The notes below the pieces were generated by a model. That model was not told where the DNA came from, ran no database searches, and saw nothing but the letters and a program-made list of their open reading frames with translations. A stretch of DNA of 36,143 nucleotides from Candidatus Paralactobacillus gallistercoris (GTDB taxonomy: Bacteria; Bacillota; Bacilli; Lactobacillales; Lactobacillaceae): positions 1 through 36,143 of the forward strand of contig JAHLFS010000058.1 of NCBI GenBank assembly GCA_018883675.1. Direction: 5' to 3'. Both the position numbers and the translations under genes were made by a program. Shown here one piece after another: positions 12,915 through 36,064 of this stretch. The stretch's first letter is position 1; every line of letters begins with the position of its first letter.

Positions 12915-14711
12915 TTATAGTAACTTTTCTAATTCATCAAGGCGTTGAGCAAAAACAGCGAAGGCATCTTCTAAGTAATCAGCCTTTGTCATATCAACAC
13001 CAGCTGCTTGCATAGTGCTGATAGCATCATGGGAACTACCCGATTTTAAGAAATTAATATATTTATCCCGTGCTTGTGGTTGGTAAGTGGAAATGCCATG
13101 TGCTAAAGTTGATGCGGCCGCAAAGCCAGTTGCATATTGATAAACGTAAAAATCACGATAAAAATGCGGAATGCGTGACCATTCTAAGGCAATTTCAGGA
13201 TCGCGAGCAACACTTTCGCCGTAGTATTTAGCATTTAAATCGGCATAAAATTGGTTCATCACTTCAGCAGTTAAAGGCTTACCAGCTTGATCAGCTTCAT
13301 GAATAAATTGTTCGAATTCAGCGAATTGGGTTTGCCGGAAAACGGTTCCCTTGAAACCATCAAGATAATAATTTAGAACATAAGCGCGGATTTTTGGATC
13401 AGTTTGCGTATCTAATAGATAGTTTGTCAAAATATTTTCGTTAGTTGTTGATGCGATTTCGGCAACAAAAATAGGATAATCACTATAGATGTAAGGTTGA
13501 TTATGATTGGTGTACCAGCTATGCACACTATGACCGGTTTCATGAACTAATGTGTATAAGTTGTTCAAATTATCCTGCCAGTTTAAAAGCATAAATGGAT
13601 TAGTATCATAACCACCACCGGAATAAGCGCCAGAACGTTTACCTTTATTTTCGACTACATCAATGTAACGATTATTAAAAATTTCTTTAACGTGTTCAAG
13701 GTAATCATCACCCATCACGGCAAGGGCTTTCAATGCTTCTTGTTGGGCGGTTTCATAAGTGTAAGTTAATGGGGGTTCACCCACTAAAGGAACATACATA
13801 TCATACATATGTAATGTTGATACCTTTAAAACTTTTTTCCGTAAGGCAACATAACGATGTAGTAAGTCTAAATGCTTGTTCGTTGTGGTTACCAAAGTGT
13901 CATAAACACTAACGGGAATATGATTGCGATCCATTTCCGCCGTCCGTGAATCTGGATAATGATGGACTTTAGCGTCATAATTGTGTGCTTTAACATCACT
14001 AGCTAAGGTCATAGCTAAGGTGTGTTGAAACTGCCCATATGTTTGGTAAAGTGTTTGGAAAGCGTCCTTGCGCACTTGCCGCTTAGTTGATTCGATTAAT
14101 TTGCCGTAAACACCATTAGATAGTTGTATTTGTTGGCCATCGGCGGTAGTTACGGTTCCAAATGTCATGTCGGTATCATTCAAAGTATCAAATGTATTTC
14201 GCGGTGCGTTAAAAATATCACTGGCGGCGGCTAGTAATGCTTCTTGATCAGCCGGTAATACGTGTGCGCTGTTAGCGGTAATTTCATTTAATAAATGTTG
14301 ATAAATTTTTAATTGTGGTTCTTCATTAATAAAACGTTGTAGTTGGTTAGCATCAATGGCAATGATTTCTGGTTCCATAAATGCTAATTGACTATCAATT
14401 TGTGCAGCTAAACTATCGGCTTGCGCATTAAAGGCTTGATACTTGGTATTAGTAGTATCTTGATCAGCTTTTAAACTAGCATAAACGTAAACTTTTTCAA
14501 AAGTACGCATAGCTGCAAAAATAGTTTGTAAACCGTGCAATAAATCAGCCGCACTTTTACCAAGTGTACCTTTAACTTTTGCGGCATGGGTTGCTTGTTG
14601 TTTGGCTTTTTCAAAAGCGGTTTGCCAGGCTTCATCATTCGGAAAGATAGTAGTTAGATCCCATGTTTTGGCAGTGGGTACGTCTTGGCGTAGTGGTAAT
14701 TTCGTTGTCAA
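12915..14711 (-). CDS. pepF: Oligoendopeptidase F
   Basis: M3-family zinc site LVHETGHSVHSWYT; GGYDTNPFMLLNW; C-terminal FLKSGSSHDAISTMQAAGVDM. Confidence 0.96.
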   Translation of the reverse strand: MTTKLPLRQDVPTAKTWDLTTIFPNDEAWQTAFEKAKQQATHAAKVKGTLGKSAADLLHGLQTIFAAMRTFEKVYVYASLKADQDTTNTKYQAFNAQADSLAAQIDSQLAFMEPEIIAIDANQLQRFINEEPQLKIYQHLLNEITANSAHVLPADQEALLAAASDIFNAPRNTFDTLNDTDMTFGTVTTADGQQIQLSNGVYGKLIESTKRQVRKDAFQTLYQTYGQFQHTLAMTLASDVKAHNYDAKVHHYPDSRTAEMDRNHIPVSVYDTLVTTTNKHLDLLHRYVALRKKVLKVSTLHMYDMYVPLVGEPPLTYTYETAQQEALKALAVMGDDYLEHVKEIFNNRYIDVVENKGKRSGAYSGGGYDTNPFMLLNWQDNLNNLYTLVHETGHSVHSWYTNHNQPYIYSDYPIFVAEIASTTNENILTNYLLDTQTDPKIRAYVLNYYLDGFKGTVFRQTQFAEFEQFIHEADQAGKPLTAEVMNQFYADLNAKYYGESVARDPEIALEWSRIPHFYRDFYVYQYATGFAAASTLAHGISTYQPQARDKYINFLKSGSSHDAISTMQAAGVDMTKADYLEDAFAVFAQRLDELEKLL

Positions 14712-15965: not shown

Positions 15966-16539
15966 ATTCTTCTTTTTTTCCCCGATAAACTAACTGAATA
16001 GAAAAAATTTCGGTATCTTTAGCTAGTTGGGTAATTTGTTGGGCCATTACTTCAGGCTTTTGCGGATAATTGGCACGAATCCAATCAAGCAATAAACCAC
16101 TGCAGCCATAACTAAAAAACTTGGCATAAAAGGTTTTATTATTTGCACTAATTTTCTGCTGGGGATCAAACATTTGAAATAAGTGAATAAAACGTTGTTC
16201 GATAATGTATGAAAATTCCCGCATGAGGATACTTTGATCACTAGTTACAGTGTTGTAATATAATTTCGCGTTATTCTTAATTGCTTTAAGCATGCGGGTA
16301 ACTTGCTGTTCCCAATTATCAAGTGATATTTGATTATCATCAAGATAGTAAAGGGCAGTTTGATGGTAAACCCATGCCAATAGCATATACTTATCATTAA
16401 AATGATAATAAAAGGTTTGTCGCTTAATCCCCACTTCACGAGTAATATCAGCAATACTAATTTTATTGAATGATTTAGTTTGGCATAGTTTAATTAAAGC
16501 ATCGCATAGCGCGCGTTTGGTTTTTAAAGAATCACTCAT
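15964..16539 (-). CDS. TetR/AcrR-family transcriptional regulator
   Basis: N-terminal HTH LCQTKSFNKISIADITREVGIKRQTFYYHFNDKYMLLAWVY. Confidence 0.88.
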   Translation of the reverse strand: MSDSLKTKRALCDALIKLCQTKSFNKISIADITREVGIKRQTFYYHFNDKYMLLAWVYHQTALYYLDDNQISLDNWEQQVTRMLKAIKNNAKLYYNTVTSDQSILMREFSYIIEQRFIHLFQMFDPQQKISANNKTFYAKFFSYGCSGLLLDWIRANYPQKPEVMAQQITQLAKDTEIFSIQLVYRGKKEE

Positions 16540-26403: not shown

Positions 26404-27195
26404 ATGAATGATGAACCAGAAACACAAACGAAACGTTCACACTTTAATGATTTGAGCGATATTCTTGCCGTATTACGGCGGCGCAGTAATTTAATTGTGT
26501 GGACAACAGTAATTATTACGGTCTTATCTTTAGTAGTTTCCTTATTCTTAATTACACCGAAATACAGTTCAACTACCGAAATTTTAGTTAATCGCAAACA
26601 AGATAATACTGACATGGCTAATGGTGCACAAATTCAAACCGATGTGCAAATGATTAGTACTTATAAAGATATTATTACTAGTCCGGCTATCTTAGATGAA
26701 GTTAGTCAAAAAATCGCCTATCAAGGTCATCACTTAACACCGGGCGAATTAAAGAATGATATTAGCATTTCTAGTCAACAAAATTCCCAAGTCTTTTCAT
26801 TACAAGTAAAGTCAAATAATCCAGAACTTTCCGCTGCTATTGCGAACACCACGGCGCAAGTCTTTAAACGTCGGGTTAAGAACATTATGAGTGTTAATAA
26901 TGTTTCGATCTTGTCAAAAGCAATTAGCAATCCACATCCAGTTTCACCACGGGTATTATTAAACACGGTAATTGGCTTAGTGGTTGGTTTATTACTTGGC
27001 TTAATTATGGCTTTCTTATTTAATAGTTTGGATCGTACGGTTGATAATGAAAGCTTTATTACCGACGTGGTTGGTTTAAATGATTTAGGAACCATTAACG
27101 AAATTCCAGCTAATAAAATTAAAAATGAAATTATGCAACAACATCATGTGCATAGCCATAGTAATGCACATCCTAATTCACATCGGAGGGTTTAG
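26404..27195 (+). CDS. Wzz/CpsC-type chain-length determinant, BY-kinase modulator
   Basis: Two TM segments flanking an extracellular domain; ILAVLRRRSNLIVWTTVIITVLSLVVSLFLITPKYSSTTEI; P-rich NPHPVSPRVLLNTVIGLVVGLLLGLIMAFL. Confidence 0.92.
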   Translation: MNDEPETQTKRSHFNDLSDILAVLRRRSNLIVWTTVIITVLSLVVSLFLITPKYSSTTEILVNRKQDNTDMANGAQIQTDVQMISTYKDIITSPAILDEVSQKIAYQGHHLTPGELKNDISISSQQNSQVFSLQVKSNNPELSAAIANTTAQVFKRRVKNIMSVNNVSILSKAISNPHPVSPRVLLNTVIGLVVGLLLGLIMAFLFNSLDRTVDNESFITDVVGLNDLGTINEIPANKIKNEIMQQHHVHSHSNAHPNSHRRV

Positions 27196-27198
27196 GCA

Positions 27199-28002
27199 AT
27201 GGCTATTTTGGATATCTTTACAAAACGGAAAACAAAATTAGATGAAAACTCAATGAAATACGGGGTTGCTTTAATTACCGCCTCAGAACCGCATTCAGCA
27301 ATTGCCGAACAATACCGGACGATTAGAACAAATATTCAGTTTTCATTTATTAATAAGAGTTTTAAAACATTAGCGTTTACTTCTTCCAATCCATCAGAAG
27401 GCAAGTCAACTGTTAGTGCTAACATGGCTGTTTCTTGGGCTGAAGAAGGGAAAAAAGTTTTATTAGTTGATGCTGATTTACGGCGGCCAACGATGCACCA
27501 TACGTTTAATGTACCGAATAATAAAGGGTTAACAACCATTATTACTTCGCGTGAATCAGTTGATTTAAATAATGTGGTACATACTACTTATATTCCTAAT
27601 TTAAGTATTTTAACCAGTGGTCCAATGCCACCAAACCCAGCTGAATTACTTGGTTCCCGCCGGATGGGTGAATTATTAGATTTCTTAAGTGATCATTATG
27701 ATTTAATTATTCTTGATATGCCACCGGTTAATACGGTTACTGATGCCCAAGTACTGGGGGCTAAAGTTGATGGCGTGATTATGGTAATTCCTCAAGGCAT
27801 TGCGAATAAGGATGCCGTTGTCCGGGCTAGCAACTTGTTAAAACGCGTTAAGGCTAATATTATTGGCGCGATCATGAACCGGGTAACAGCCAAAGAATCT
27901 GGTGGTTATTACGGTGGCTACTACGGTGGTTATTACGGTGGCTACTATGGTACAAGTGATGCTGATAAACAGCATAAGCAAAAGAAGAGTAAGCGCGTAT
28001 GA
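27199..28002 (+). CDS. CpsD/EpsC-type tyrosine-protein kinase (BY-kinase)
   Basis: Walker A FTSSNPSEGKSTVSANMA, Walker A' VLLVDADLRRPTMH, C-terminal tyrosine cluster GGYYGGYYGGYYGGYYG. Confidence 0.94.
   Translation: MAILDIFTKRKTKLDENSMKYGVALITASEPHSAIAEQYRTIRTNIQFSFINKSFKTLAFTSSNPSEGKSTVSANMAVSWAEEGKKVLLVDADLRRPTMHHTFNVPNNKGLTTIITSRESVDLNNVVHTTYIPNLSILTSGPMPPNPAELLGSRRMGELLDFLSDHYDLIILDMPPVNTVTDAQVLGAKVDGVIMVIPQGIANKDAVVRASNLLKRVKANIIGAIMNRVTAKESGGYYGGYYGGYYGGYYGTSDADKQHKQKKSKRV
27901..27948 (+). repeat. Four 12-bp units encoding GGYY, with two alternating synonymous versions
   Basis: GGTGGTTATTAC / GGTGGCTACTAC / GGTGGTTATTAC / GGTGGCTACTAT, in frame in the BY-kinase C-terminus. Confidence 0.95.
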
Positions 28003-28778
28003 TTGATTTACACTCACATATTTTGCCCGGTGTTGATGATGGTTCGCCTGATATGGAGCATTCATTAGCGTTAGCCCAAGTGGCAGTTGATAACGGCATT
28101 ACGCATACTTTATTAACACCGCACCATATGGATGGCAAGTATACCAATCATAAGGTCGATGTGATTCGCAAAACCCAACTTTTTCAAGCCGAATTAACGC
28201 GCCATAATATCCCGTTAACGGTGTTTCCGTGTCAGGAAGTTCACTTGACGGGTGATCTAATTCAAGCCATTGATGCGGATGATATCTTGTTTGCTGACGA
28301 AGGCAATCATTATTTGATGTTAGAATTACCGCATTCGCACGTGCCGACTTATTTTATGGATGATATTTTGCCAGAATTAGAAGCGCGGCGGATTGTGCCA
28401 GTTATTGTTCATCCTGAACGTAATCAAGGCATTCAAGCCAACCCGGATTTATTGTATGAATTGGTTGAAAACGGGTGCTTAACCCAGTTAACTGCCAGCA
28501 GTTATCTTGATATTTTTGGCAAACATGTTACGGAATTAACACAACAAATTATTGATGCCGGTTTAGGTGCGGTTTTTTCATCAGATGCGCATAATTTAAA
28601 AGGACGTAATTTCCGCATGCAAGCGGCTTTTGATAAATTAACACAGCAAAATGGCTTAGCCAAAACCCAATGGATGCAAGCTAATGCGAAGCACATTATT
28701 AATGGCGAAGAAGTTACGTTGACTAACTTTACTAAAGTTGGGGCAAAGAAGAAAAAGAAGCACTTTTGGTTCTTCTAA
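27999..28778 (+). CDS. CpsB/YwqE-type PHP-domain tyrosine-protein phosphatase
   Basis: [56 protein letters not shown]; ATGA overlap with the kinase. Confidence 0.94.
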   Translation: [259 protein letters not shown]

Positions 28779-28807
28779 ATTTTATGAAAAAAGAAAGGTA
28801 GTTACAT

Positions 28808-29746
28808 ATGAGTAAAGTTTTGATTACCGGTGGTGCGGGTTTTATTGGTTCTAATTTAGCCGATCGTTTAATTAAGGATAACGATCAAATCGTAATTGTC
28901 GATGATTTTTCGATGGGCTTACGGGAAAATATTCCTGACTCCCAATTAATTACGACTTATCAAGCGAATATTACTGATAAAGTGTTTATGAAAGACTTAT
29001 TACTAAGTGAACACTTTGATTACATTTATATGTTTGCGGGCATTGCGAGTGTGGCTGATTCAGTTGAACGACCGTATGAAACGCACCAAACTAATCAAGA
29101 AGCTAATGTTTACTTATTAGAAGTGCTTCGTAAGTATCATTTACCAGTGAAAAAAGTATTATTTGCGTCATCAGCAGCCGTTTATGGCAATGATCCGCAC
29201 TTACCAAAACTGGAAACAAGTACGATTGATCCATTAACACCGTATGCGATTGATAAATTTGCGACGGAACGTTATTTGATGGATTACGGGCGCTTGTACA
29301 ATATTCCGACCGTGGCTACCCGTTTCTTTAATATTTATGGACCTAAACAAAACCCATCTTCACCATATTCAGGAGTATTATCAATTATTAGTGATTGCAT
29401 CAAGCAAGGTAAAACTTTTAATTTGTATGGCGATGGGCAACAAGTGCGTGATTTTGTTTATATTGATGACGTTATTGACGCATTGCTTTTATTAACCAAA
29501 GAATCCGATATTAATCATGAAGTATTTAATGTTGCTGCTGGCGTAGGAACTACTTTGAACGACGTTATTCGGGCTTATGAACATGCCGCTGGTAAAAACT
29601 TAGCCGTTAATTATTTACCAGAACGGGTGGGTGATATTAAATACTCATATGCCGACATTACTAAATTACGGCAGTTAGGCTTTAAGCCAAAATACAATAT
29701 TGAATCAGGTATTGCTAAATACTGGCAATATATTAATCAAAAATAA
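28808..29746 (+). CDS. NAD-dependent epimerase/dehydratase (nucleotide-sugar SDR)
   Basis: VLITGGAGFIGSNLADRL, SSAAVYG, PYAIDKFATERY (YxxxK), RFFNIYGPKQNPSSPYSGVLS. Confidence 0.92.
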   Translation: MSKVLITGGAGFIGSNLADRLIKDNDQIVIVDDFSMGLRENIPDSQLITTYQANITDKVFMKDLLLSEHFDYIYMFAGIASVADSVERPYETHQTNQEANVYLLEVLRKYHLPVKKVLFASSAAVYGNDPHLPKLETSTIDPLTPYAIDKFATERYLMDYGRLYNIPTVATRFFNIYGPKQNPSSPYSGVLSIISDCIKQGKTFNLYGDGQQVRDFVYIDDVIDALLLLTKESDINHEVFNVAAGVGTTLNDVIRAYEHAAGKNLAVNYLPERVGDIKYSYADITKLRQLGFKPKYNIESGIAKYWQYINQK

Positions 29747-29761
29747 TAGAAGGCAATTATT

Positions 29762-30406
29762 TTGAAGAAACAAACCAAGGACATTAAATATTCTTTTGAA
29801 CAAAAATTAACGCACCCATTAACCAGTGATTATCTACCGTTAAAACGGGTGCTTGACGTTATTGCCGCAAGTGGGTTATTTACCATTACGTCGCCAGTTA
29901 TCTTGTTATTTGCATTATTAATTCGTTTAGAAACGCCCGGCAGTCCGGTTTATCGGCAAGAACGGGTAGGTTTAATGGGCAAGCGGTTCGTTATTGCCAA
30001 GTTGCGTTCCATGTATAACGATGCTGAAAAGCATAGTGGAGCCGTGTGGGCAGCGAAGAACGATGCACGGGTAACTAAAGTTGGTAAATTTATTCGAAAA
30101 ACCCGGATTGATGAATTACCACAACTACTGAATGTAATTAAAGGAGAAATGAGCATGATTGGTCCGCGTCCAGAACGGCCTAACCTTACGGAACAATTTA
30201 GCCATGATGTACCTGGTTTTGAACAACGTTTGGTGGTTAAACCCGGTTTAAGTGGTTATGCCCAGGTTCATGGTGGTTATGACGTAACTCCTGCCGAAAA
30301 ATACCAAATGGATCAACACTATATTGAAAACTTTGGTTTCTGGGAAGATTTTAAGATTGTTTTTGAAACCATTCGGGTAGTGTTAACAGGGGATGGCGCA
30401 CGTTAA
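29762..30406 (+). CDS. Sugar transferase, undecaprenyl-phosphate priming glycosyltransferase (TTG start)
   Basis: KRVLDVIAASGLFTITSPVILL, PVYRQERVGLMGKRFVIAKLRSM, KTRIDELPQLLNVIKGEMSMIGPRPERP. Confidence 0.95.
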   Translation: MKKQTKDIKYSFEQKLTHPLTSDYLPLKRVLDVIAASGLFTITSPVILLFALLIRLETPGSPVYRQERVGLMGKRFVIAKLRSMYNDAEKHSGAVWAAKNDARVTKVGKFIRKTRIDELPQLLNVIKGEMSMIGPRPERPNLTEQFSHDVPGFEQRLVVKPGLSGYAQVHGGYDVTPAEKYQMDQHYIENFGFWEDFKIVFETIRVVLTGDGAR

Positions 30407-31221
30407 TGGAAAAAGTATCGGTTTTAATGTCCGTTTATCGCAATGAAAAAGCACCTTACTTGCGTAAGGCAATTCAAAGTATGTTGACGCAAACAGTTAT
30501 GCCAGCTGAAATTGTTATCGTGGCAGATGGACCGTTAACATCTGCTTTGGAAAAAGTACTGCAAGATTACCAATGTCAATATCCTGATATTTTTAGTATT
30601 TATTATTTAGCGCAAAATCATGGCTTAGCTTATGCGTTAGCGTATGGTTTACAACGGTGTAAGTGTAATTTAGTTGCGCGGATGGATACGGATGATATTG
30701 CCGTTCCGCAACGGTTAGCTTGGTCTTTACAAGCAATGGCTGCGCATCATTATGATATTTATGGCGGACAAACGGCTGAATTTGATGGCAATGAAAATAA
30801 TATTATTGCTCATCGAACGGTGCCACTTAAACAAGCTGACATTATGCGTTTTGCTCATCGTCGTAATCCAATGAATCACATGAGTGTCATGTATCGGCGC
30901 GATAAGATTCTTAAAATTGGCAATTATCGCTCCTTTAATGGCTTTGAAGATTATGATTTATGGGTGCGTGCCTTGCAAGCGGGTTATCAATTTGGTAATG
31001 ATAACCGCGTTTTTGTATATGTGCGGGCCGGTAAAGAGATGATGGCGCGTCGAGGTGGTCTTGATTATTTAAAACGGAATATCAAGATGCGTTTTCTTTT
31101 TTATAAAGAACATTTCTATGACTGGCAAGACTTATTGATAACTACTTTAGGTATTAGTGTTACTAATCTGATGCCTGAAAAATTACGCTACTTGATTTAC
31201 TACAAGTTGTTGCGTAAATAG
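30406..31221 (+). CDS. Glycosyltransferase family 2
   Basis: VSVLMSVYRNEKAPYLRKAIQSMLTQTVMPAEIVIVADGP, ARMDTDDIAVPQRL; TAATG overlap with the upstream gene. Confidence 0.92.
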   Translation: MEKVSVLMSVYRNEKAPYLRKAIQSMLTQTVMPAEIVIVADGPLTSALEKVLQDYQCQYPDIFSIYYLAQNHGLAYALAYGLQRCKCNLVARMDTDDIAVPQRLAWSLQAMAAHHYDIYGGQTAEFDGNENNIIAHRTVPLKQADIMRFAHRRNPMNHMSVMYRRDKILKIGNYRSFNGFEDYDLWVRALQAGYQFGNDNRVFVYVRAGKEMMARRGGLDYLKRNIKMRFLFYKEHFYDWQDLLITTLGISVTNLMPEKLRYLIYYKLLRK

Positions 31222-31246: not shown

Positions 31247-32296
31247 ATGAGCCTGTTTATTACTTTATTTATTATTTTAGCTTGTTTATCATTAATTGAT
31301 TTTTTATCAGAACATAACTACGGTTTATTTATTTCAACAGTTATTCTCGCGGTTATTGCTGGTGTTCGTTATAATGTCGGTTATGATTATGGCACTTATT
31401 ATCAATTTTATTTAACTGGCAATCACAGTTTTGAAAAAGGCTATGTCTTGTTAAATAATCTGGCTCATTATTTTCATCTTAGTTTCTTTACATTTGAATT
31501 ACTTTTTTCGTTACTAACGATGGGTTTATTGTTTATTTTCCTGAGAAAATATGTAAGACCTGGTTTAGGTAACTTGTGCTTATTGTATTATTTTGCGCGC
31601 TTCTATTGGGTACGTGATTTAGGGCAGATTAGATCTTCATTGGCAGCTGTTATTTGTTTATTTGCCATTAAATATATTAGTGAAAAACGTTTACTGCCAT
31701 TTTTAATAATTACTTGTATTGCCGAAAGCATTCATAAAGGTTCGTTTATTATTATTGCTGCTTATTTAATGGCTAATTACTTTAATAAACATATTAATTA
31801 TTTCAAAACCATTACGTATTTATTACTAGCTTACATGGTGGGACTATTTTTGAAAGCTTCGCCTGCATTAGTAAGTAAACTTACTAATGGTAGTGCTTAT
31901 GTTACAGCTTCTGTTTATACCGAAAATTCATCGGCTAGTATTATCACTTTAATAATTCAAATCATTGTTATCTTGCTATATGTTTGGATTAGAATGCGTC
32001 AAGGTAAGCAACATAGTAAGTTTATGGATGCAGTTGCTAATGTTTATTTAACAGGAACATTAATTGCTTTAACGCTTATTGGTTATAAAACATTAGGCTA
32101 TCGTTTAGATACTTTATTAAACACCACTGAAATATTAATGGTACCGTATATTATTGATAAGTTCTTCAGTAATAAAATTATTGTTGTGCTTATTAACATT
32201 GCTGCAAGTGCTATTGTTTTATATATGATTATGTTTTCAGATAATTCTTATTTGAACTTTATTCCGTTTACTACGGTATTTACACCAATTAAATAA
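31247..32296 (+). CDS. EpsG-family protein, probable EPS repeat-unit polymerase
   Basis: Polytopic membrane protein, AGVRYNVGYDYGTYYQFY near the N-terminus, typical of EpsG proteins. Confidence 0.82.
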   Translation: MSLFITLFIILACLSLIDFLSEHNYGLFISTVILAVIAGVRYNVGYDYGTYYQFYLTGNHSFEKGYVLLNNLAHYFHLSFFTFELLFSLLTMGLLFIFLRKYVRPGLGNLCLLYYFARFYWVRDLGQIRSSLAAVICLFAIKYISEKRLLPFLIITCIAESIHKGSFIIIAAYLMANYFNKHINYFKTITYLLLAYMVGLFLKASPALVSKLTNGSAYVTASVYTENSSASIITLIIQIIVILLYVWIRMRQGKQHSKFMDAVANVYLTGTLIALTLIGYKTLGYRLDTLLNTTEILMVPYIIDKFFSNKIIVVLINIAASAIVLYMIMFSDNSYLNFIPFTTVFTPIK

Positions 32297-32311: not shown

Positions 32312-33229
32312 ATGCTATCGTATACAACCGTTATTGTGACTTTTAATCGAAAAAAGGCGATTCGTAATGCTTTATTAAAGCAATTTAAACAAACTTATCC
32401 AGCACAGAAAATTATTGTTGTTGATAATGCTTCAACCGATGGTACGTATGAATATATTGAAGATATTATTAATGATAATCAGGATAAGGTACGCTACTTA
32501 AAATTAAAAGAAAATTTAGGTGGTTCTGGCGGTTTTTATTATGGTATGAAAGCGGCATTGCAAGAAAATACTGATTTAATTGCTATTTCAGATGATGATG
32601 CTTCATATGATAAGGATTATTTTGAAAAAATTATTCATGTTGCTGAACAAAAACCTAAGACAATGGCCTTTTGTGGAGCAATGTATCGGAATGATAAATT
32701 AGAACCAATGACTGCTAAGTTTTTAGTTAACGAAAATACACTGCGTTTTCGTCCAGCAACTGCAAATGATTATCATCATGGTAATTTTTATGTTGATGTT
32801 TGGTCATTTGTTGGTCCTGTTTTTCGTACTAAGATGATTCAAGAAATTGGCTTACCGCTTAAAGATTTCTTTATCTGGTTTGATGATTCGGAATATTCAA
32901 TTCGCATGCACAACCATGGTTATCGTTATTGTGTTGTTCCTGATGCCAAAATTCATTTATATACTGATGCGCAATTAGCAGTTGCGCCACTTTGGAAAAA
33001 GTATTATGGTTTCAGAAATGAAATTTATTCAATAAATAAATATGGTAAGGGTCTTAGCGCTAAATTATATCCATATTTTATGTTAATTAAAAAGTATGGG
33101 GCCGTTATTTTACGAAAAAATGAGTATCAAGGTATTCGAACTAAAGCATTTAAAATTTTTGCCAAGGCATTTATTGATGGTGAACGTGGTAAATTAGGTA
33201 AGACTATCGATCCTATTAAGAGTAAGTAA
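32312..33229 (+). CDS. Glycosyltransferase family 2
   Basis: TVIVTFNRKKAIRNALLKQFKQTYPAQKIIVVDNASTDGTYEYI, NLGGSGGFYYGMK, SDDDASYDKDYFE; GlfT2-like. Confidence 0.9.
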   Translation: MLSYTTVIVTFNRKKAIRNALLKQFKQTYPAQKIIVVDNASTDGTYEYIEDIINDNQDKVRYLKLKENLGGSGGFYYGMKAALQENTDLIAISDDDASYDKDYFEKIIHVAEQKPKTMAFCGAMYRNDKLEPMTAKFLVNENTLRFRPATANDYHHGNFYVDVWSFVGPVFRTKMIQEIGLPLKDFFIWFDDSEYSIRMHNHGYRYCVVPDAKIHLYTDAQLAVAPLWKKYYGFRNEIYSINKYGKGLSAKLYPYFMLIKKYGAVILRKNEYQGIRTKAFKIFAKAFIDGERGKLGKTIDPIKSK

Positions 33230-33230
33230 T

Positions 33231-34301
33231 ATGAAAATCTGTTATATTATCACCACTACTACGAATTGTGGTCCAGTTAATGTTTTATATAATTTATTAG
33301 TAAATTATCATCAACTTAATAGTTTTGAACCAATTATCATAACATTGAAACCAGATGATGCTAATAAATCGCGACGTCAAGATTTTGAAGCATTAGGCAT
33401 TAAAGTATATGAATTTAAAAAAGGAATTCATGAAAAACAAGATATTTTTAAATTCATTGTTCAAAATAACTTTGATGTTATTCATTCGCATGGTTTAATT
33501 CCTGACATAATTAATAGTTATGTCCAGAAGAAAGAAGATAAACCACGCTTTCATATTACCACCTTGCATAATTATCCTTTTGAGGATTATCCGCAACGTA
33601 AGGGTAAATTATTAGGTAATGCGATGGCTTATTTGCATTTACGTGCTATTAAAACCTTATATAAGGTAGCTTGTTCTAAGGCAATTGCTCAACGTTTTGC
33701 CATGATTGGCGTTAAAACGGATGTTATTCAAAACGGGATTATCTTTAGTAATAATTTTGTAGGTAAATCACAAATATCATCAAACCATCCTATTTTTCTT
33801 TATCTTGGACGTATTCATGCTCGCAAGAATGTGCTATTTTTAGTTAATTATTTTAAAAAGCATCCTGATTATGAATTTTGGATTGTTGGTGATGGTGCTG
33901 AATATGAAAACATTAAACATGCAGCATCGGATGCTAATAATATCAAGGTTCTTGGTAAAACCAATCATCCTAACGACATGTATCAGAAAGCCGATTACTA
34001 TATTTCTGCATCTAAATCAGAAGGATTACCCTTATCAGTTTTAGAAGCATTATCATTTGGTTTGCCATGTATATTATCTGACATTGCTCCGCATGCGGAA
34101 ATCATTACTAATGATAAATTAGGCGAATTATTTATTAATAATGATGAAACTAGTTTAAATCAAGCGATTACCAAAGTACTAACTACTAAGTATGATGGTA
34201 AGCAGATTTATGAGATGACTAAGGATAAATTTAGTTCGGATACTATGATGAATAAATATTATTTATTATATGAAAATAAAATACTTAGGAGAAAAGCATA
34301 A
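33231..34301 (+). CDS. Glycosyltransferase family 4
   Basis: GPVNVLYNLLVNYH, FLYLGRIHARKNVLFLVNYF, ISASKSEGLPLSVLEALSFGLPCILSDIAPHAEII. Confidence 0.92.
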   Translation: MKICYIITTTTNCGPVNVLYNLLVNYHQLNSFEPIIITLKPDDANKSRRQDFEALGIKVYEFKKGIHEKQDIFKFIVQNNFDVIHSHGLIPDIINSYVQKKEDKPRFHITTLHNYPFEDYPQRKGKLLGNAMAYLHLRAIKTLYKVACSKAIAQRFAMIGVKTDVIQNGIIFSNNFVGKSQISSNHPIFLYLGRIHARKNVLFLVNYFKKHPDYEFWIVGDGAEYENIKHAASDANNIKVLGKTNHPNDMYQKADYYISASKSEGLPLSVLEALSFGLPCILSDIAPHAEIITNDKLGELFINNDETSLNQAITKVLTTKYDGKQIYEMTKDKFSSDTMMNKYYLLYENKILRRKA

Positions 34302-35231
34302 TGAGTTTTGTAAAAAAAGTTGCTCAATCAATTTTAAATTTTGAACAATATTCAAAACCGATTTCTAAGAAAAAATATTTTTTAAATAATTCTAAAAATC
34401 AAAAGACATTATTAATTGTTTTAGCAGGGTATAAAACGGAGCTTTGGGACAATGTATTTGGACGTTTAGAAAAATATAGTCCTGATAATATTGATATTTG
34501 TTTGGTTTCAAGTGGTGTATATAAGGAACATTTAAATGATCTTGCTAAGAAAAATAAATGGTCATATTTAAGCATTAAAAGAAATAACATTAATTTAGCA
34601 CAAAATACAGCCATTTCATTGTTTCCACATGCTCAAAACATTATGAAAATGGATGAAGATATTTTTGTAACTGAAAATACTATTCAAAATTTGATTGATG
34701 ATTTCGAAAAAATAAAAAAAGAATCTCGTTATGATGTAGGTACTATTTCTCCACTCATTAATTTAAATGGTTACTCATATCTTCGTTTATTAGAATTGTT
34801 CGATAAAGTAGATGTTTATGAAAAATTATTTGGTAGAGCAAAGTTTGGCGGAAAGGATAAACCTATTGAAAATTCTGTCGAAGTGGCGCGATTTATGTGG
34901 GGGGTACGACAACTATCTGCCAAGTATTGATGAAATGAATAAGAAGTTGTCGGCTAATAAAGATATCAGTTATACTTTGTGTCCGATTCGTCTAACTATT
35001 GGTTTATTTATGATGTCTCGTGATTTTTGGAAAGAAATGAAGATGTATAAAGTAAGACGTTTTTTGAATGATTTTGGTAAAGACGAACGTCAAATTAATG
35101 TGGAATCTATTTTAAATTCCAAGGCAATGGTTATTGATGAACGATGTGTAGTTGGACATTTTTCATTTCATTATCAGAATGATGAAATGGTTAAAATGTA
35201 TCGTCAACATCCAGAATATTTTAAAATGTAA
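34301..35231 (+). pseudogene. Glycosyltransferase-like EPS protein, interrupted by a +1 shift in a G6 tract (ORFs 34301..34930 and 34812..35231)
   Basis: Frame 1 ...VEVARFMWG|VRQLSAKY* and frame 2 ...|GYDNYLPSIDEMNKKLSANKDISYTLCPIRL.... Deleting one G from 34899-34904 fuses them into a 310-codon ORF; MDEDIF resembles a DxD-type motif. Confidence 0.82.
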
Positions 35232-35242
35232 GGCTTTAAATT

Positions 35243-36064
35243 ATGATTATTTCACATGATCAACTAAAAAAGTTACAACAAGTTGAATTACAAGCTTTAA
35301 TTAAATTCGATCAAATATGTCGTAAATATGATATTCCTTATACTTTATTTGGTGGTACTTTAATTGGAGCAGTTCGCCATCATGGCTTTATTCCGTGGGA
35401 TGATGATGTTGATGTATTATTAACACGGCAAAATTTTGAAAAATTACGTCGTATTCCCGCTCAAGAATGGGGCGATGATTACTTTTATCAATCGCATTAT
35501 ACCGATCATAATTACCGTTATTCTTATGATAAGTTACGCGTTAATCATACTTATTTTGGTGAAGAAGCATTAATTGGCACTGGTATTAAAAATAACGGTG
35601 TTTTTGTTGATATTTTTCCTGCTGATAAAGTTTCTAAAGATTATCGTTATCAACTACAAGTGATTGAATTTATGATATGTCGGTTATTATTTATGGCTAA
35701 ATACATTAATATTAATTATCGACATGGTTTTGAAAAAAAAGTCGCTCAGCTTATTCGAGTGCTTTTTAAAGGGATTAGTTTGGATAAGTTTTATCAATTT
35801 AACGAAAAGCTAATTCAAAAATATGATAATAGTAATTTTAAGTATTATTGTTCCTTTGATAGTTTCAATATAAAAAATGAAGTTTATCCTGAAAAATTTT
35901 TAACGGAATTAGAATATACTGATTTTGAAGGACATCAATTTTTAATTTCTAAGCATTACGATGCTATGCTTAAAGAAGGTTATGGTAATTATATGCAATT
36001 ACCACCTAAAGAAAAGCAAGTAAATAAGCATGAAGTTACAGCATTAAAATTGACAAAAGATTAA
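35243..36064 (+). CDS. LicD-family protein
   Basis: LFGGTLIGAVRHHGFIPWDDDVDVLLTRQNFEKL (LicD nucleotidyltransferase-like motif), NGVFVDIFPADKV. Confidence 0.92.
   Translation: MIISHDQLKKLQQVELQALIKFDQICRKYDIPYTLFGGTLIGAVRHHGFIPWDDDVDVLLTRQNFEKLRRIPAQEWGDDYFYQSHYTDHNYRYSYDKLRVNHTYFGEEALIGTGIKNNGVFVDIFPADKVSKDYRYQLQVIEFMICRLLFMAKYININYRHGFEKKVAQLIRVLFKGISLDKFYQFNEKLIQKYDNSNFKYYCSFDSFNIKNEVYPEKFLTELEYTDFEGHQFLISKHYDAMLKEGYGNYMQLPPKEKQVNKHEVTALKLTKD

Follow-up and report, generated by a model that had tools for sequence, protein, structure and literature searches.

A frame break at six Gs in an EPS glycosyltransferase gene of a Lactobacillaceae genome: probably a recent slippage mutation at a family hotspot

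The EPS cluster and its broken gene

The window, a 36,143-nucleotide stretch of DNA that is the whole of contig C3, belongs to a 1.16-Mb Lactobacillaceae draft genome of 68 contigs that is 87% complete. An EPS cluster runs from position 26404 to the contig end (Table 1). Some 30 other genes on this contig are intact; one glycosyltransferase gene of the cluster is broken in frame at a run of six Gs. Its first ORF encodes 209 amino acids and stops eight codons past the run, with the tail VRQLSAKY, and the rest of the protein is read in the neighbouring frame, in a second ORF that includes GYDNYLPSIDEMNKK. An ORF check thereby confirms the layout described in a first-pass annotation of this DNA. 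Read-through translation with one G fewer in the tract likewise bears out the continuous 310-codon gene proposed there, giving 309 amino acids plus a stop and reading FMWGYDNYLPS across the junction. The tract is thus a homopolymer within coding sequence, and the reading frame depends on its length. The continuation can be taken as real protein because it matches intact orthologues of 310–321 amino acids end to end, at 35–50% identity. A chance overlap of ORFs as the source of the frame break is rejected.

Table 1. Features of the EPS cluster in the window
Feature	Position	Strand	Basis
Cluster start: chain-length regulator, tyrosine kinase, PHP phosphatase, epimerase, priming transferase; intact	26404..30406	+	names inferred from sequence
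Family 2 glycosyltransferase, intact	30406..31221	+	
EpsG-family polymerase-like membrane protein, intact	31247..32296	+	
Family 2 glycosyltransferase, intact	32312..33229	+	
Glycosyltransferase group 1 (GT4-like), intact; one-base overlap with the start of the broken gene	33231..34301	+	
GT-A-fold glycosyltransferase, amino-terminal two thirds; 209-aa ORF with DEDIF, premature stop	34301..34930	+	ORF, alignment and model
G6 tract at conserved Trp-Gly codons, the frame-break site	34899..34904	+	sequence and orthologue alignment
Same glycosyltransferase, carboxy-terminal third, next frame; D261 E262, G285 H286, Q292	34905..35231	+	ORF and alignment
LicD-family phosphotransferase, intact; next cluster gene after the broken one	35243..36064	+	

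Identity and conservation of the glycosyltransferase

No Pfam or NCBIfam family scores above its cut-off for the glycosyltransferase, and a PDB sequence search returns no relative. Its AlphaFold model (pLDDT 93.4) finds its best PDB structure matches among GalNAc transferases, hyaluronan synthase, and chondroitin polymerase, at TM scores of about 0.45–0.5. As modeled, the product of the broken gene is a glycosyltransferase of GT-A fold, encoded within an EPS cluster. The first-pass assignment to EPS glycosyltransferases is supported.

A first scan with the single glycosyltransferase protein as query gave no match, and neither a scan of viral contigs nor tblastn of plasmids and phages revealed a relative. 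Orthologues are present in a few Lactobacillaceae, and the genome_contigs collection contains 55 orthologous loci (L034–L088) spread over Firmicutes and some other phyla. The window's protein shares with these relatives end-to-end similarity, the DEDIF motif, W200, D261 E262, and G285 H286. The frame is intact in 53 of the 55 loci and broken in only two. The closest orthologue (L034, 50% identity) is listed as a contig of a Bacteroides MAG, yet its grouping is with Lactobacillaceae, which probably reflects a binning error. In a Selenomonadales orthologue (L086:3270-3420), the frame is broken elsewhere in the gene, at a place without a G tract.

Invariant residues flank the break, with DEDIF at 118–122 before it and D261 E262, G285 H286, and Q292 after it, so the truncated product is very probably inactive. 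The alternative that both pieces still work, via polymerase or ribosome slippage at the G6 tract or via re-initiation at an ATG after the stop, can point to an ATG in the downstream frame four bases past the stop codon. No Shine-Dalgarno-like sequence lies close upstream of that ATG, however, a split or frameshifted form is not standard in any orthologue examined, and the split cuts through a single GT-A domain. Together these observations leave two working pieces a very improbable outcome.

Accuracy of the sequence and age of the break

An assembly or sequencing error, in which the tract really has one base fewer and the gene is intact, would fit a draft of 68 contigs and 87% completeness, and would also fit the lack of decay in the gene described below. 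Contig ends provide insight into the data behind the assembly. Contig C12 begins with TGTATAAGAGACAG (L032:1-14), the untrimmed Nextera transposon end, and contig C28 finishes with its reverse complement (end of L022). Judged from this adapter, the underlying reads are probably Illumina, and because such data rarely miscall six Gs, a miscall of the tract is unlikely. The intactness of the other genes of the contig also speaks against error, as do the other G6 tracts checked within genes, where the reading frame is undisturbed. The first-pass annotation had held sequencing error to be equally compatible with the break; we consider it improbable.

Decay elsewhere in the gene, the pattern named in the first-pass annotation as the mark of a fixed pseudogene, is not seen. 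The glycosyltransferase gene carries no second stop or frame break besides the G6 lesion, and its codon-position GC pattern is still kept. The part after the break is conserved to a normal degree: the ratio of mean identity to the family between C part and N part is 0.795 in the broken gene versus 0.788, 0.747, and 0.830 in three intact sister orthologues, and conserved-column violations number four out of 25 versus three to five in the three intact sister genes. Since the post-break part has not drifted and is as conserved as in intact sisters, the break would be either recent or reversible.

Short G tracts and the question of a switch

Reversibility would be expected of a contingency switch, and the first-pass annotation had raised the possibility that the G6 tract represents an OFF state of one. 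In its low-rate form, this reading has short G tracts in three genes toggle single decorations of the polysaccharide: the glycosyltransferase G6 and two G7 tracts, in an acyltransferase and a LicC-like gene, respectively. The distribution of tracts lends it some weight. The genome contains 18 distinct tracts of at least six Gs, of which two are G7 and none is G8 or longer, and both G7 tracts fall in the EPS/lic cluster. Two of the three cluster tracts, the glycosyltransferase G6 and the acyltransferase G7, are out of frame, and the LicC-like G7 is in frame. Over 204 kb of the genome's ORFs, synonymous shuffling predicts 6.0 G6 and 1.1 G7 tracts versus seven and two found, a frequency in line with chance that counts against a switch. 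The EPS/lic genes (13.9 kb, made up of C3 from 26404 plus C12 to 4565, assumed to form one cluster), by contrast, contain three G6/G7 tracts against 0.24 expected (P about 0.001, synonymous shuffle), in a post hoc test for which one of the three tracts was preselected. Long tracts at the homologous codons of two distant orthologues, L066 and L084, and the undecayed state of the glycosyltransferase also fit a switch.

Several observations weigh against it. Surveys of phase-variable genes set their cut-off for hypermutable length at G9 (PMC5953494), a length that the G6 tract does not reach, and in Bifidobacterium breve even G10 is far less slippery than G11 (PMC9187656). The genome is without a G8, and six-base G tracts are present in intact dnaA, an ftsW/rodA-like gene, and ackA (names from sequence). 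Because housekeeping genes carry G6 intact, general phase variability of G6 tracts in this genome is rejected. Sister orthologues of the glycosyltransferase in Lactobacillaceae show only G4 at the tract site, and LicC orthologues are without a G run. The local enrichment, moreover, comes from a post hoc test. A literature search of open-licence papers found no report of an EPS switch based on a homopolymer in lactobacilli. Support for phase variation in this genome is weak: the OFF state of a contingency switch raised in the first-pass annotation is not supported here, and a low-rate contingency switch appears somewhat unlikely.

The acyltransferase adds a further difficulty for a switch. This gene (L032:908-1997 on C12) is doubly broken, having lost one copy of a directly repeated 10-bp unit near its start, as judged against an intact paralogue on contig C43, in addition to bearing the out-of-frame G7. 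Given the second lesion, a change in the tract alone cannot restore the gene. The same contig encodes a MucBP-repeat adhesin (L032:10854-17326) with two lesions, a shift of one base near 13150, next to a G4 run, and a TAA stop in frame at 16349. The two-lesion acyltransferase and the adhesin are cases of ordinary decay, and decay of surface genes in this strain is a simpler account than switching. In a survey for frame breaks that sampled about 220 kb with a rough codon model, the remaining hits resembled gene boundaries or antisense noise in the subset inspected. Contig C12 also holds consecutive LicD-like, choline-kinase-like, and LicC-like nucleotidyltransferase genes (L032:2026-4565), the last with the in-frame G7, a row that suggests a choline-type decoration in a Lactobacillaceae genome.

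A slippage-prone site in the family

The tract lies at codons conserved in the family. The homologous Trp-Gly codons are TGG GGN, giving G4, in 30 of 57 aligned orthologues, and several others have an in-frame G6 because the next codon begins with G. Among the ten distinct runs of at least six Gs in orthologues, seven fall at the Trp-Gly loop. On the tree, at least five changes are needed to account for the presence of six or more Gs at the site.

The preferred explanation, to which we assign a probability of roughly 0.6, is a recent slippage loss mutation at this family hotspot rather than a dedicated switch. The conserved Trp-Gly pair, coded TGG GGN, would always seed four or more consecutive Gs, and the run is longer here because the Gly codon is GGG. 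Replication slippage would then have added one base, probably recently, as the rest of the gene is undecayed; slippage at the homopolymer, which the first-pass annotation had named as the cause, is supported. The product terminates eight codons on, without the conserved carboxy-terminal third, and the sugar added by this glycosyltransferase would probably be absent from the polysaccharide. Reversion may occur, at a rate that is probably low, such that the change would behave as a loss mutation. A slippage loss explains the broken EPS gene in the window and cautions against labelling short G tracts as switches. At the level of the family, it shows how a pair of conserved residues can predispose a gene to slippage.

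The poly-G phase-variable glycosyltransferase genes of Neisseria and Campylobacter, as defined for PhasomeIt (PMC5953494), likewise have an intragenic G tract that sets the frame, but G6 here is below the G9 cut-off there and is known from a single genome. The sortase-pilus switch of B. breve (PMC9187656) also concerns a Gram-positive gut commensal with a surface gene divided into two ORFs by a G tract; its tracts are G10–G11, with mixtures of lengths measured in populations, whereas the present case is a G6 in one genome. The LicD-like, choline-kinase-like, and nucleotidyltransferase genes in or near the cluster recall the Lic-1 (licABCD) phosphocholine pathway (PMC10434233). In the present cluster, unlike the Haemophilus influenzae Lic-1 locus, no tetranucleotide repeat was noticed, and the choline chemistry is predicted only. 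The H. influenzae lic switch is itself a tetranucleotide repeat, located in licA.

Poly-G clusters in gut Clostridia

The phase-variation idea, which fares poorly in this genome, finds better ground elsewhere in the family, in two orthologues from rabbit-gut Clostridia MAGs with long tracts at the same Trp-Gly codons. L066 (genome G441) has G11 there, in frame, and L084 (G442) has TGGGGC followed by G10 and is out of frame exactly at this point. The two are sisters on the tree (support 100/99) and distant from the window's gene. Within the families of both Clostridia genomes, searches yielded no additional clear orthologue, and none of four more orthologues from a Lachnospiraceae-side search has a long G run.

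These Clostridia loci resemble the window in having an orthologous glycosyltransferase with a tract at the same codons, and differ from it in tract length (G10–G11) and in the many G8–G11 tracts of adjoining glycosyltransferase and acyltransferase genes. In the genome of L066, 11 of 14 tracts of at least nine Gs lie within one 27-kb stretch on a single strand (G441:C2:72928-99556). The surrounding region (L169, L170; G441:C2:68000-103000) contains G9–G11 tracts in both frame states, carried by seven Acyl_transf_3 genes (acyltransferase, PF01757) and by family 2 transferase, PMT_2, and other genes. The genome of L084 has 20 tracts of at least nine Gs, many of them grouped in three contigs and mostly out of frame, in transferase, acyltransferase, and Caps_synth genes; where a tract lies close to a gene start, its ON/OFF call varies with the start codon assumed. 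From their sequence, the poly-G regions of both genomes look like contingency clusters for multi-gene phase variation. A limited literature search, confined to open-licence papers, found no report of poly-G clusters in Clostridia.

The loop might be seen as a site where poly-G contingency has arisen repeatedly in Firmicutes. Its protein sequence would impose G-rich codons from which a tract starts, and certain lineages would have lengthened this tract into a fast switch, with G10–G11 in Clostridia as the fast form and G6/G7 across the EPS/lic cluster of the lactobacillus as a slow one. This broader proposal is unlikely as it stands. The family result also draws attention to gut Clostridia, where clusters of several genes have the appearance of poly-G switches. 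Several polysaccharide clusters of G442 (contigs C34, C56, and C7; L171, L172, and L173) carry G8–G11 tracts. Four family 2 transferases of this genome have their tract immediately ahead of the DSDD motif, in the order EYCANN/EYCARN, GGG, xxFVDSDD, and one contig breaks off within such a tract.
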